From Phaeocystidibacter marisrubri (GTDB lineage: Bacteria > Bacteroidota > Bacteroidia > Flavobacteriales > Schleiferiaceae), in the NCBI RefSeq assembly GCF_008933165.1, contig NZ_WBVQ01000001.1, positions 620,001 through 684,000 on the forward strand: a stretch of 64,000 nucleotides of DNA, given 5' to 3'. This document shows positions 1,370-8,465 of this stretch, in pieces. Position numbers and translations under genes: made by a program. The stretch's first letter is position 1, and each line of letters begins with the position of its first letter. The notes under the pieces are model-generated. The model saw nothing but the letters and a program-made list of their open reading frames with translations, searched no databases and was not told where the DNA came from.

Positions 1370-2278
1370 TTAAAAGTAAACTTGAAATTGTACGAAGGCC
1401 GTTGCGCTGGCTTCCACCAAGCCGCCACCAAAATTTTGAGCTAGTGGAATTTGCGTGTATGCGGCTAGGGAATACTCATTCCATTGGAAAATCAGTCCCG
1501 CCTTTGCCATGTGGAAAGTCCCACTGGTTTCCTCCTTCATGTTGATGGACGTCCCGTCAGAATCGGGTGCATCATAGGCGAAGCCATATCCTCCTTCAAA
1601 CCAGAACCCCGACATTTCCGAAGCACTGCTCCATAGTCGAATGAGTTCACTCGCTTCTGCATTCACTTGGTTGCCAAAGTGGTATGAGTCACCATTGGAG
1701 GTGTTCATTCGGTAGGCAATAGCCAGTCGAGTGGCAAAAGCGGGAGAATGTCGGTAGGTAAACCTCGAGCCTAAAAGGAAGTCGGTTGACCCCGTGCCCG
1801 GAAGCATGTTTGCTGGAATAGAGGTAGCCTGATCGTTCGACCAAGGTCCTGTAGGTAGCTTCACGGTTAGGCTGACATCGGCAACCCACGGAGATTCATC
1901 AGTGGCTACTTTCCAGATGTAAGCGCTGGAAAGAGCAACATCTCCTATGGCCGTTTGAACACTCTTATTGTCTGATAATTCGTAAGTGTTTAGGGCCATC
2001 GGAAGAGCGGCATACAAACTCCATCGATCATCAATGCTGTACTTGCCGGAAAGGGCAAGCGTTCTAAATACTTCCCGAGATACTTCGTATTCACTCGGAT
2101 TAAAAAGGCTTAGGTGTTTGCTGTGAAAGACGTTTTGCTGGAATGACAAACCAATGGAAGTCCGACTAAAATAAAGTGGATCTCCAGATAGCATTCCAGG
2201 TCTACATCCACAAACATCACAAGCCATGCTGCCCACCGATAGACCAAGGCCTACGGTAAGCGCAATTACTTTTTTCAT
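1370..2278 (-). CDS. Outer-membrane transporter-like beta-barrel protein with N-terminal CDVCGC motif
   Basis: A 302-residue exported protein. After a signal peptide (MKKVIALTVGLGLSVGSMA) the mature form starts with CDVCGC, a Cys cluster often seen at the N-terminus of Bacteroidota outer-membrane proteins encoded beside metal-related genes. The remainder shows repeated amphipathic strands and ends in an aromatic residue (TAFVQFQVYF), as expected for an outer-membrane barrel of the phenol-degradation MetA-like transporter type. It sits between a Cys-rich small membrane protein (2310-2702) and a His-rich lipoprotein. A role in metal, perhaps copper, handling is an inference from these motifs. 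Confidence 0.65.
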   Translation of the reverse strand: MKKVIALTVGLGLSVGSMACDVCGCRPGMLSGDPLYFSRTSIGLSFQQNVFHSKHLSLFNPSEYEVSREVFRTLALSGKYSIDDRWSLYAALPMALNTYELSDNKSVQTAIGDVALSSAYIWKVATDESPWVADVSLTVKLPTGPWSNDQATSIPANMLPGTGSTDFLLGSRFTYRHSPAFATRLAIAYRMNTSNGDSYHFGNQVNAEASELIRLWSSASEMSGFWFEGGYGFAYDAPDSDGTSINMKEETSGTFHMAKAGLIFQWNEYSLAAYTQIPLAQNFGGGLVEASATAFVQFQVYF

Positions 2279-2309: not shown

Positions 2310-2702
2310 TCAACAGGTCAATTGCGGGGGGGCGTGAGGAGGGGTGAGGTAAATGCGTTGAAGGGAACCACAGTTGAGTGGAATTCGTTGCTGTTCTGCC
2401 ACGGGTATGAGGGGAAATGACAATTCGGTAGAACGAATATTCGCGATGAACTCCAATGAGCGGTAAGCCGGTTTTTGAGGAGTCTTTTTAGCGGGATCAG
2501 GCTGCGCAGAAGTCTCTAGTTGGGTAAGCTCACTCTTGAGGTGACAGGTGCCATGACATTCCAATTCAGGTTTGTCCTTGTTTACACAGAATTGCTCTTC
2601 GATGGTTTTCATCTGAAGGACATAGTTCATCATAGTCCCCATTTGCAGGAGTTGTGGGAGAACTAAGGTGATGATCAAGAATGAAGCAGCTATGCGTTTC
2701 AC
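2310..2702 (-). CDS. Small exported protein with conserved Cys motif (C-x-N-K-x4-C-H-G-T-C-H)
   Basis: A 130-residue protein with an N-terminal hydrophobic segment (IAASFLIITLVLPQLLQMGTMM) followed by FCVNKDKPELECHGTCHL. This Cys/His motif is typical of a Bacteroidota family found beside copper or heavy-metal genes and TonB receptors; the biochemical role is not known to me. The start is GTG at 2702, only 4 bases after a -7 promoter box, so the mRNA may be leaderless. It is the first gene of a cluster that continues with the CDVCGC barrel protein 31 bases downstream. Confidence 0.65.
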   Translation of the reverse strand: MKRIAASFLIITLVLPQLLQMGTMMNYVLQMKTIEEQFCVNKDKPELECHGTCHLKSELTQLETSAQPDPAKKTPQKPAYRSLEFIANIRSTELSFPLIPVAEQQRIPLNCGSLQRIYLTPPHAPPQLTC

Positions 2703-5873: not shown

Positions 5874-5983
5874 GCTAAATAGCCGAAACAACGTACTCAC
5901 TCATTCATATTCATCGTTGTGATTAGGGTCACAACAAGTGCACGTAGGATTTAATATCTTGCTGCTTGGATAAAAACGCCATC

Positions 5984-6745
5984 ATGAAGAAGAACGCACT
6001 ATTCTTTACGCTCGCATCACTTATGCTTCTTTCACTCACTTCATGTGAAGAGAAAAGCTTGATTCCGGATGATCAGAAACACCCGGATAGAAGAAATATT
6101 GAAGCCTATGTCTTCAATTACTGGAATGGAGGCTCGTTCTATTTCGATTCGGTATATGCTGTAGCTGGAGGAGAGATCCAAATCTCTGACATCACGATGG
6201 TATTCTCGGATTACGAGTTTTCACTTTCAACGGCCGATACGGTAGATGCCGATACCTCTTTTGGGGTGGCTAACCTGCGCAAATTACCAACGAAAATTGG
6301 TCTTCTGCCAGCCGGTACATACACAGGGGAACATCAGGTTACTATTGGCTATACAGAGTCTATGTTCAATACACCTCCTAGTATGGCTCCGAGCGAAATT
6401 AAGGCAGACGGACTCTTGCGTTCCGACGTAGGATACAACCACTTGTTGATTCGCGGTAAGTACAGAGTGGAGGGAGATACGATTAATTGGCTTCCAACCA
6501 TTCCTTTTGAATATCGCCTAGGTGGAACCGAGTTTAATGTTCACTTCGAACGCCCGATGAGCTTCTCGGTTACAGCCAACAACCCTGTTTCTATTTTCTT
6601 CAATCTTCAAGTGGATATGTTGTTCCAAGGGGGACTAACTCCTCCAAACATTCCATTGATTGTTTCCGATCCTAACGATAACGACGACTACACCGCTGCT
6701 ACTCTGCTCTTTAACAATTTAGATCAAGCATTGTCACTCGATTAG
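5984..6745 (+). CDS. MbnP-like lipoprotein lacking the Trp motif
   Basis: A 253-residue lipoprotein (MKKNALFFTLASLMLLSLTSC). The ATG at 5984 is preferred to the in-frame TTG at 5966 because the signal peptide begins there. The order of blocks resembles the MbnP protein encoded next: an early strand pair (IQISDITMVFSDYEF), a turn (LLPAGTYTGEHQVTIGYTES), a GY-x-x-L-x-I-x-G-K-Y block, and a late LQVDMLFQG. Where MbnP has MYWSW before the GY block, this protein has LLRSDV. It ends 2 bases before mbnP and is probably in one operon with it. The homology is my reading of the motif order and needs a profile search. Confidence 0.55.
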   Translation: MKKNALFFTLASLMLLSLTSCEEKSLIPDDQKHPDRRNIEAYVFNYWNGGSFYFDSVYAVAGGEIQISDITMVFSDYEFSLSTADTVDADTSFGVANLRKLPTKIGLLPAGTYTGEHQVTIGYTESMFNTPPSMAPSEIKADGLLRSDVGYNHLLIRGKYRVEGDTINWLPTIPFEYRLGGTEFNVHFERPMSFSVTANNPVSIFFNLQVDMLFQGGLTPPNIPLIVSDPNDNDDYTAATLLFNNLDQALSLD

Positions 6746-6747
6746 CC

Positions 6748-7488
6748 ATGAAAAGAGCATTCATTTTTTCGATTTTCATCATAACTGCAGCCACAGTCTT
6801 CGTGAGCTGTAAGGAGGATGATCCCGACCCAGGGAAACTTCAAATCACTTTCGAAATGGCCAAGGATGGCCAGACAGTGAATTTGAATGAAACTTTTGCA
6901 AACGATAGCGTTGCAGCTGTGCGAATTGAAAATTTGAAGTTCTATTTGTCGCATATCATTCTAGAAGATAAAGGCGAGTTACGCGATGTAGAGATTGTTG
7001 ACTTTGTTCAAGGTAGAATAGCGTTCACCTTTGATGACATTGATGCAAAAACCTATTCTGGTCTTTCCTTTGATGTAGGCTTGGACAACGATCAAAATGC
7101 ATCGTATCCCCCTGACTTTGAAACGGGAACTCCACTAAGCGCTTCTTGGGCGATGTACTGGAGTTGGGCGATGAAATACCGCTTCGTGATCATTGAGGGG
7201 AGAGGGGCTCCTGACGGTACCTTCGATGCGAGTCCAGATGATTTTAATCTCGTGATTCATCCCGGAATGGACGGATGGAATCGTGCGGTGAATTTGTCGG
7301 ATGACATCGTTATCAAAGAAGGAAGAACCACCTCATTGACGGTTCAAATTGATGTTGACGACATGTTCAATGGTCCGGCTGGATTCATGGATTTGCGACT
7401 GGAGAATACATCGCATACCACCCCCGCAGATAAGGACATTGCAGAGAAGTTCATGGTGAATTTCGCTGCGGCTATGTCGGCAAAATGA
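6748..7488 (+). CDS. mbnP: MbnP family copper-associated lipoprotein
   Basis: A 246-residue lipoprotein (signal ending FVSC, Cys21). It has the hallmark of MbnP proteins, SWAMYWSWAMKYRFVIIEG, with Trp134, Trp138 and Trp140. In the characterised MbnP/MbnH pair from a methanotroph, the di-heme enzyme MbnH oxidises a Trp of MbnP to kynurenine, and MbnP then binds copper. Here the partner gene follows with a 4-base overlap, so the pair is intact. No methanobactin precursor gene is visible, which agrees with the wide occurrence of this pair outside methanobactin clusters. Confidence 0.85.
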   Translation: MKRAFIFSIFIITAATVFVSCKEDDPDPGKLQITFEMAKDGQTVNLNETFANDSVAAVRIENLKFYLSHIILEDKGELRDVEIVDFVQGRIAFTFDDIDAKTYSGLSFDVGLDNDQNASYPPDFETGTPLSASWAMYWSWAMKYRFVIIEGRGAPDGTFDASPDDFNLVIHPGMDGWNRAVNLSDDIVIKEGRTTSLTVQIDVDDMFNGPAGFMDLRLENTSHTTPADKDIAEKFMVNFAAAMSAK

Positions 7489-8465
7489 AGCGTTTACTCT
7501 TCACTGCATTCGGAAGCGCGCTCTTGATAATCGGTTGTTCAGAACCTACACCAGACGCGTTTCAAGTTTCACTTCCAACTCATATTCCGCCTGTTCCATG
7601 GCCTGAAAGCGCGCCAACGGTTGCAGAGGTTGAATTAGGTGAAGCACTCTTTCATTCTACTCAATTGAGTTTGAATCGGGAGATATCCTGTGCATCCTGT
7701 CATCTTCCATCCCATGCTTTTTCAGATACGTCATCAGTAAGTCTTGGAATCCACCGTCAGTCGGGTTTTAGAAACACTCCCTCTATTTTCAATGTGGCTT
7801 GGAAAGAGCATTTTTTCATGGAAGGAGGCGTGGATCGACTGGAGCGTGCCACCTTAGGCCCCATGTTGGTGGAAGAGGAGATGAGTTTGCAAGCGCCTGA
7901 ATTGATGAAAAGATTGCGCGAGGATATCGTCTTTCATGAAAAATTCGTGGCGGTATATGGCGAATCTTATGATTATGCCAATGTCGTTGATGCCCTCTCT
8001 GCCTTTCAGCGGAGCGCGATTAGTGTAGACTCTAAGTGGGATGCGGTTCAAGAGGGAATTGAAGAGTTTTTGGATGATGAAGCCTTGGGGCTGGCTTTAT
8101 TTGAATCGGATTCTTTGGCTTGTAGTTCTTGTCATAAGCCTCCATTCTTTAAGGACGGAGATTTTCATGATGTGGGAATGCCAATAGGGGAAGACCCCGA
8201 TTTTGGAAGAGGACGATTCACTTTTGACACTACCGATTACTACAGCTTTAGTACACCATCCCTTCGAAATGTAGAGCTTACAGCACCTTACATGCACGAT
8301 GGGAGTATTTCTACACTAGACAGTGTGATTCGCTTTTACGAGGCAGGTGGTGTGCGAGAATCTGAAATCTCTGCGTTTACATTACAGGATGAACATCGAT
8401 CGGCATTGATCTCTTTCTTGAAAAGCCTATCTGGACGAGAAGCAAAGCGGGCTTATAAGGAATAA
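7485..8465 (+). CDS. mbnH: Di-heme MbnH/MauG-type cytochrome c peroxidase (lipoprotein)
   Basis: A 326-residue exported protein with a lipoprotein signal (LLIIGC, Cys18). Two c-type heme sites are present, CASCH at 69-73 and CSSCH at 213-217. The family blocks RNTPSIFNVAW-KEHFF and TAPYMHDGSISTLDSVIRFYEAGG are clear. MauG-like members perform long-range oxidation of a partner protein rather than peroxide detoxification; the adjacent MbnP gene (4-base overlap) points to that role here. It acts in the periplasm, attached to a membrane. It is the last gene of the 5984-8465 operon. Confidence 0.9.
   Translation: MKRLLFTAFGSALLIIGCSEPTPDAFQVSLPTHIPPVPWPESAPTVAEVELGEALFHSTQLSLNREISCASCHLPSHAFSDTSSVSLGIHRQSGFRNTPSIFNVAWKEHFFMEGGVDRLERATLGPMLVEEEMSLQAPELMKRLREDIVFHEKFVAVYGESYDYANVVDALSAFQRSAISVDSKWDAVQEGIEEFLDDEALGLALFESDSLACSSCHKPPFFKDGDFHDVGMPIGEDPDFGRGRFTFDTTDYYSFSTPSLRNVELTAPYMHDGSISTLDSVIRFYEAGGVRESEISAFTLQDEHRSALISFLKSLSGREAKRAYKE

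Follow-up and report, generated by a model that had tools for sequence, protein, structure and literature searches.

A conserved MbnP paralogue without copper-site residues beside an MbnP/MbnH-type gene pair in Phaeocystidibacter marisrubri

In the present work, we describe a three-gene lipoprotein unit of Phaeocystidibacter marisrubri, with emphasis on its first gene, a relative of the copper protein MbnP that lacks the residues of the copper site. The unit lies within a stretch of 64,000 nucleotides (contig NZ_WBVQ01000001.1, positions 620,001 to 684,000 of the forward strand), hereafter the window, from whose first letter all coordinates are counted; the genome that carries it comprises 3.35 Mb, and NCBI taxonomy places the genus Phaeocystidibacter in the Phaeocystidibacteraceae, Flavobacteriales. 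All three genes run in the same direction on the forward strand: gene 1 (protein P0001, 5984–6745) encodes a lipoprotein with a predicted MbnP fold and without the kynurenine-copper site, gene 2 (P0002, 6748–7488) an MbnP-type lipoprotein, and gene 3 (P0003, 7485–8465) a di-heme lipoprotein of the MauG/MbnH type. Genes 1 and 2 are separated by a 2-base gap and genes 2 and 3 overlap by 4 bases, while an in-frame TTG at 5966, upstream of gene 1, is likewise open. Lipobox-type signal peptides were recognized by eye on all three proteins (...LTSC-E, ...FVSC-K, and ...IIGC-S), so that coordinates and signal peptides agree with the initial annotation, which had proposed three exported lipoproteins encoded in one unit.

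The third protein carries a MauG-like domain with two c-type haem CxxCH sites (CASCH and CSSCH), as had been noticed from the sequence, and matches the Pfam model CCP_MauG at 8.6e-46. Its best NCBIfam model is TIGR04039, the MbnH family, with a score of 198.5 bits that does not reach the cut-off of 362.85, and its top match in the Protein Data Bank (PDB) is 6e1c ("Di-heme enzyme", 8e-39), which we take to be MbnH of Methylosinus trichosporium; MauG chains were matched too. The two CxxCH sites are alike in 6e1c, MauG, and gene 3, although gene 3 is shorter (326 residues versus 388 in 6e1c). Gene 2 passes the curated cut-off of the Pfam MbnP family (PF20243, 9.2e-24; 84.8 bits versus 27) and misses the equivalog cut-off of TIGR04052 (MbnP_like_WxW; 38.1 bits versus 140). 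Its AlphaFold2 model has a predicted local distance difference test (pLDDT) score of 93.5, and at E<1e-3 Foldseek matched this model only to 7l6g, the MbnP of M. trichosporium, in all six chains; VIA-align gave a Z score of 16.9 against 7l6g over 199 residues (root-mean-square deviation, rmsd, 3.1), compared to 4.9 for the runner-up entry. Single-sequence PDB searches with P0002 and with another MbnP of the same genome yielded chance-like matches only. By Pfam and best match, genes 2 and 3 thus read as an MbnP/MbnH-type pair, as originally proposed, although both fall below the NCBIfam cut-offs. A whole-genome search for an MbnB-type methanobactin enzyme (PF05114), which did not extend to the precursor peptide, found none.

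In MbnP, the first Trp of a WxW motif is converted to kynurenine, and the copper site uses His and Met. Gene 2 contains the motif as MYWSW, in keeping with the initial annotation, but the GY block reported to follow it is not there, and AMKY stands in its place. The first Trp of this motif, Trp138 (codon at 7159–7161, forward strand), is the predicted kynurenine, while His171, in HPG (7258–7260, forward), and His223 (7414–7416, forward) are predicted copper ligands. With a profile of 25 diverse MbnPs, the WNW of 7l6g was aligned with W138 and one 7l6g His with H171 (chain E 1e-3), and a second, weaker match again placed a Trp of 7l6g at W138; W138 and H171 are the positions aligned to 7l6g. 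Each of the three residues is invariant (31/31) among Trp-bearing MbnPs, namely 29 gene 2 proteins and two unlinked MbnPs of the same genome, all 31 of which match the Pfam MbnP model. In the gene 2 rows linked to gene 1, Trp occupies the W138 column in 43/43, His the H171 column in 43/43, and His the H223 column in 42/43, where the one exception is a gap. Of 45 other MbnP rows, 44 retain W138 and H171 and the remaining one is a fragment; at H223, 36 of the 45 have His, 7 Met, one Arg, and one a gap. Because this column is mostly His, and sometimes Met, in other MbnPs, H223 is a plausible second copper ligand, and by analogy with MbnP the three residues together would form the predicted kynurenine-copper site of gene 2. 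Gene 2 retains the site in the 34 loci where no MbnH is linked, including two that stop at a contig edge.

Gene 1 had been described as MbnP-like but lacking the Trp, a description that is borne out by profile alignment, by the Pfam matches of its orthologues, by its modelled fold, and by the alignment of the site. Within the alignment of gene-1 orthologues, 25 of 36 members match PF20243 at E<0.01 (best 9.6e-16); the strongest match among the gene-1 copies listed is that of G063, a genome from another family of the order, and at least seven copies exceed the Pfam MbnP cut-off (in G013, G018, G028, G037, G056, G059, and G063). Comparison of the gene-1 and gene-2 profiles with hhalign gave a probability of 99.9 and an E value of 9.4e-31 over 244 columns. 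The AlphaFold2 model of gene 1 (pLDDT 90.8) retrieved six 7l6g chains at E<1e-3 in Foldseek and nothing else among solved structures, and VIA-align scored it against 7l6g with Z 14.5 over 195 residues (rmsd 3.4), the runner-up reaching 5.3. A search of the gene-1 profile against PDB sequences gave chance-like matches only, and a scan of named genomes with P0001 gave 45 pattern matches and no confirmed relative. As judged from profiles and model, gene 1 is an MbnP paralogue with the same fold. The possibility of an unrelated lipoprotein was ruled out by the profile alignment, the Pfam matches of the orthologues, and the fold match; the profile and structure comparisons that the initial annotation had recommended thus returned an MbnP homologue, and no unrelated fold emerged.

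At the position of the WxW motif, gene 1 reads GLLRSDVGYN and has no Trp; in the protein from the window, Arg stands in both the W138 and the H171 columns, and no Trp lies near the former. Across 62 gene-1 rows, Trp at W138 was found in none, His at H171 in 2, and His or Met at H223 in none, with gaps taken as non-Trp or non-His (4, 2, and 2 of the 62 rows, an X included) and with each identical protein entered once or represented by its aligned twin. Arg is the commonest residue, filling the W138 column in 38 and the H171 column in 24 of the 62 rows. The initial annotation had remarked on the missing Trp and made no mention of the two His, which are lost as well. The gene-1 copy of G063 retains one His (SYHIG) and on this basis looks intermediate. 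Conservation in gene 2 peaks at residues 121–160 (2.61 bits versus a mean of 2.00). Residues 121–160 in the numbering of gene 1 show no such peak (1.91 bits versus a mean of 1.82); gene 1 is instead better conserved at the lipid-bearing Cys and the residues that follow it (2.26 bits for residues 21–27, compared to 1.83 in gene 2). Conserved positions specific to gene 1 include N38, D85, G122, G158, D229, and D235, and its best conserved positions include no His, no Cys except that of the lipobox, and no Met except the start. The term "degenerate", which had been applied to gene 1, holds for its metal site and not for the gene, in which decay is contradicted by family-wide conservation and by a ratio of non-synonymous to synonymous substitution rates (dN/dS) of 0.02–0.07 in 11 closer pairs (more than 80% identical, with finite dS).

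Of the first 60 genomes in the family grouping of our collection that includes the window genome (f1), 58 have gene 1, which was found with a single sequence in 55 and with a profile in 3; four of the 55 single-sequence matches were weak (7e-5 to 2e-4) and were later confirmed by the profile. The two genomes in which gene 1 was not found (G021, 70% complete, and G036, 91%) also have no strong match to Mpl, its usual neighbour, so that an assembly gap is likely in both. In a sample of 296 genomes of the order, gene-1 matches better than 1e-23 are confined to f1 and G063, and in a sample of 296 genomes of the phylum G000 alone has a match better than 1e-20; at most 9 candidates per genome were scored in either sample. 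Trp stands at the place of W138 in the 19 inspected loci whose matches were weaker, one of which duplicates another row. A tree of 77 MbnP-family proteins, whose rows were hand-picked for diversity (31 of the 58 gene-1 and 25 gene-2 proteins), was obtained by a quick search with Shimodaira-Hasegawa-like approximate likelihood ratio test (SH-aLRT) support and no bootstrap; all 31 gene-1 rows form one clan with an SH-aLRT value of 100, and the G063 copy lies next to the point at which gene 1 parts from the other proteins. In three pairs with dS under 1, the dN/dS of gene 1 is 0.03–0.06, compared to 0.06–0.12 for gene 2 in the same genome pairs (dS 0.81–1.14), and in genomes without gene 2 it is 0.03–0.05 in four pairs with dS under 1.5; locus L075 was left out of this analysis. 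Gene 1 therefore has a single origin and is maintained by purifying selection. A pseudogene or decaying copy was ruled out by the single clan and by dN/dS values far below 1.

A gene of the gene 2 type adjoins gene 1 downstream in 43 of 58 loci in which gene 1 exceeds 200 residues, and 41 of these 43 tandems have a spacing within −23 to +29 bases or one 52-base overlap; an MbnH-type gene is linked in 9 of the 58. The survey of gene order, which the initial annotation had suggested, thus found a recurrent tandem rather than a chance neighbour. These 58 loci include G063, G288 and G305 (f1 genomes beyond the first 60), L070, in which gene 1 lies at a contig end and gene 2 on another contig, and L075, in which a run of N lies inside gene 1; outside them stand G008 and G031, where gene 1 is cut, G008 having gene 2 and MbnH as well. 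Fifteen loci have no gene 2; leaving aside L070, which is truncated by the end of its contig, 14 genomes carry gene 1 alone at the locus. A match to the MbnP profile lies elsewhere in 12 of these 14, with the Trp confirmed in the four that were inspected (G012, G013, G014, and G035), whereas genome searches of the other two, G052 and G058, found no MbnP and no MauG-like match. When 61 genomes were searched with gene 3, a MauG-like match was missing only in G009, G052, and G058, and G009 has gene 2 although no MauG-like match was found; outside these three genomes, oxidation in trans of a gene 2 protein without a linked MbnH is conceivable. Parsimony on the gene-1 tree requires at least 2 changes for the presence of gene 2 (56 rows) and at least 5 for linkage of MbnH (40 rows), with L070 and L075 omitted from the tree and L039 and L086, whose contigs end after gene 2, from the MbnH count. 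Gene 1 is more persistent at the locus than MbnP or MbnH, and for this reason it is not simply a helper of the two. The pair of genes 1 and 2 is also kept where Mpl lies on another contig (e.g., in G003, G004, G015, G022, G030, and G038); on this ground, the proposal that the tandem is preserved merely by the gene order acyltransferase-Mpl was rejected. Two loci depart from the usual arrangement. In G063 (L064, 4259–6563), three genes of MbnP fold stand in tandem before an MbnH-type gene, in the order Trp-bearing, intermediate gene-1 type with one His, and Trp-bearing; in G018 (L059, 3317–5839), gene 1 is followed by two MbnPs of the gene 2 type and no MbnH is linked.

We consider it probable that gene 1 is an ancient MbnP paralogue with a copper-independent scaffold or docking role in the envelope, encoded beside a kynurenine-copper module made up of genes 2 and 3. 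Within that module, the MbnH-type product of gene 3 would oxidize Trp138 of the gene 2 MbnP to kynurenine, and gene 2 would then bind one Cu(I) through His171 and His223 in the outer envelope; such chemistry is ascribed to genes 2 and 3 by analogy with their relatives and, for the copper site, with CorA (PMC3912023). Gene 1, lipid-anchored and with the Trp and both His replaced, would be no substrate of MbnH and would bind no copper at that site. It would instead represent a selected, copper-independent envelope lipoprotein across the family, co-encoded with MbnP where the latter is present, and its most likely function would be that of a scaffold or docking lipoprotein, which works by itself in lineages that have no MbnP and next to MbnP in those that do. 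While homology, fold, site loss, single origin, purifying selection, and retention where neither MbnP nor MbnH was found were computed as set out above, we infer the localization, docking, co-expression, and copper chemistry of the unit. Whether gene 1 moreover founds a copper-independent branch of MbnP, that is, a pseudo-metalloprotein and core envelope lipoprotein of the family that can outlive its ancestral copper module, appears to us evenly balanced.

Several observations weigh against a selected, copper-independent role for gene 1. P0001 on its own matches no Pfam or NCBIfam model at E<1. The dN/dS of gene 1 reaches 0.21–0.22 in two distant pairs (dS above 2), as well as 0.09 and 0.13 in two pairs of genomes without gene 2 (dS near 2), all at a dS too high to be reliable, and its mean identity over 861 pairs is 30% versus 35% for gene 2; given these dN/dS and identity figures, gene 1 is slower than gene 2 within some genera and not overall. 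A Trp lies a few columns from W138, mostly in the preceding column, in 22 of the 62 gene-1 rows, and the lineages concerned may possess an oxidizable Trp. The genome of G058 is 88% complete, which makes its absence of MbnP a weak one (G052 is 95% complete), and signals for surface export, as described in PMC5080379, do not separate gene 1 from gene 2 (14 versus 20 of 42). Moreover, the close tandem would also fit a physical partnership of the two proteins. If gene 1 were a dedicated hetero-partner, useless by itself, whose task is to associate with MbnP at the envelope and hand it to MbnH or a copper receptor, its position closely upstream of gene 2 in 43/58 loci would be accounted for, as would the retention of the pair in several genomes although the usual downstream Mpl is on another contig. 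We judge this unlikely, if well worth keeping in view, since 14 genomes have gene 1 without an adjacent gene 2, since dN/dS is low in close pairs of these genomes, and since neither MbnP nor a MauG-like protein was matched in two of them, G052 and G058. The same 14 genomes, and these two in particular, make it unlikely that acting as a decoy or as an assembly partner, both suggested in the initial annotation, is the whole role of gene 1.

Conservation of the fold and of the gene-1-specific positions (N38, G122, G158, D85, D229, and D235) would also be expected if the MbnP scaffold of gene 1 had acquired another site, specific to its lineage, for a metal or a small ligand; as the best conserved positions lack His altogether and include Cys and Met solely as lipobox and start residues, we find this rather improbable, hard-metal sites built from Asp or Glu being the form in which it might still hold. 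A decoy or second substrate of MbnH, to which the MbnH-type gene in 9/58 units and the nearby Trp in 22/62 rows could point, is very improbable: the window protein has no nearby Trp, MbnH is unlinked in 49/58 loci, and gene 1 is present in G009, G052, and G058, where no MauG-like match was found. Scarcely any credence is left for a chance neighbour or decaying duplicate, for which the loss of the copper-site residues and the failure of P0001 alone to match a family model might speak, and which we regard as refuted by the tandem in 43/58 loci, the single clan, and dN/dS far below 1. A scaffold or docking lipoprotein that is independent of copper is the reading we retain.

Compared to known systems, the models of genes 1 and 2 have their fold in common with the MbnP of M. 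trichosporium (7l6g; PF20243; TIGR04052). Gene 2 shares with it the Trp of the WxW motif and one His, although it scores below the TIGR04052 cut-off; the second predicted ligand is His in gene 2 and Met in the solved MbnP, whereas all of the site residues are missing from gene 1. In the MopE/CorA proteins of methanotrophs, which are paired with SACCP/CorB, the site residues equal the set predicted for gene 2: according to PMC3912023, the copper site of CorA consists of two His, a water, and kynurenine, and CorA is co-transcribed with a di-heme enzyme. A further source (PMC3621798) states that MopE/CorA is not markedly similar to MbnP in sequence and that MbnP/MbnH-type pairs occur far beyond methanobactin producers. 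Our sequence searches and VIA-align 2 listed no MopE/CorA entry for either model, and kinship is possible. In the openly licensed literature, titles and beginnings of abstracts among the matches listed revealed no MbnP/MbnH paper on this family and none on a site-less MbnP. To our knowledge, MbnP/MbnH pairs outside methanobactin producers have been little studied. A conserved site-less MbnP that lies beside a site-bearing one, and is evolutionarily separable from it, could serve as a natural control for copper-independent roles of the fold, while the retention of the gene 2 site without a linked MbnH allows a test of whether the oxidation can come from a MauG-like enzyme encoded at another locus. 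From a practical perspective, the Pfam MbnP label on those gene-1 copies that exceed the cut-off would wrongly imply copper binding.

Upstream of gene 1, a perfect Crp/Fnr-type palindrome (TTGTGA-N6-TCACAA; 5917–5934, forward) is a candidate operator, and TTTAATATCTTGC (5950–5962, forward) is a candidate promoter element. The palindrome is the sole match without mismatches in the 64 kb window, while matches with up to two mismatches occur at chance level (7 versus 4.87 on average, a count of 7 being attained in 17 of 100 shuffles). It is partly kept, as TGTGAT and ACA, in the aligned position of two congeners; the region upstream of gene 1 retains TGTGAT...ACA and the block TTTAATATCTTGCT in three congeners, and the candidate promoter element lies in a 14-base block identical in 3/3, despite an identity of just 55–66% among the gene-1 proteins of those congeners. 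The centre of the palindrome lies 41.5 bases upstream of a putative start point near 5967, which would be the geometry of a Crp/Fnr-class activator. Outside the genus, matches of at least 9/12 were found in 12 of 58 upstream regions, at no consistent place. An 11/12 match precedes a unit of a small protein, MbnP, and MbnH in Phaeocystidibacter luteus, the corresponding unit of the window's genome has a 9/12 match, and about 100 kb of its own DNA held a single further match of at least 11/12, inside a MauG-like gene. A regulon shared by the gene 1 unit and the unit of small protein, MbnP, and MbnH is a lead suggested by these sites.

Further genes were noted nearby and elsewhere in the genome. 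Small exported proteins that share the motif CxNKxxPxxxCxGxCxL and have no Pfam match form a family, one member of which is encoded in the window at 2310–2702 (reverse strand), 3.3 kb from the operon, and a gene of this family also lies directly before another MbnP-MbnH pair, both in the same genome and in P. luteus (L192, 9100–9474; L194, 7695–8096); upstream of it in P. luteus stands a gene for a TonB-dependent receptor. This protein may be a copper-handling part. Both genomes also contain a second type of MbnP unit, in which an MbnP of about 320 residues is followed by two consecutive MauG-like genes (L193, 6347–9415; L195, 7284–10363). Finally, the gene at 1370–2278 (reverse strand) encodes an exported protein with CDVCGCRPG past the signal peptide and a weak match to Phenol_MetA_deg; here, as in two congeners, its neighbour is the gene for the small Cys protein.

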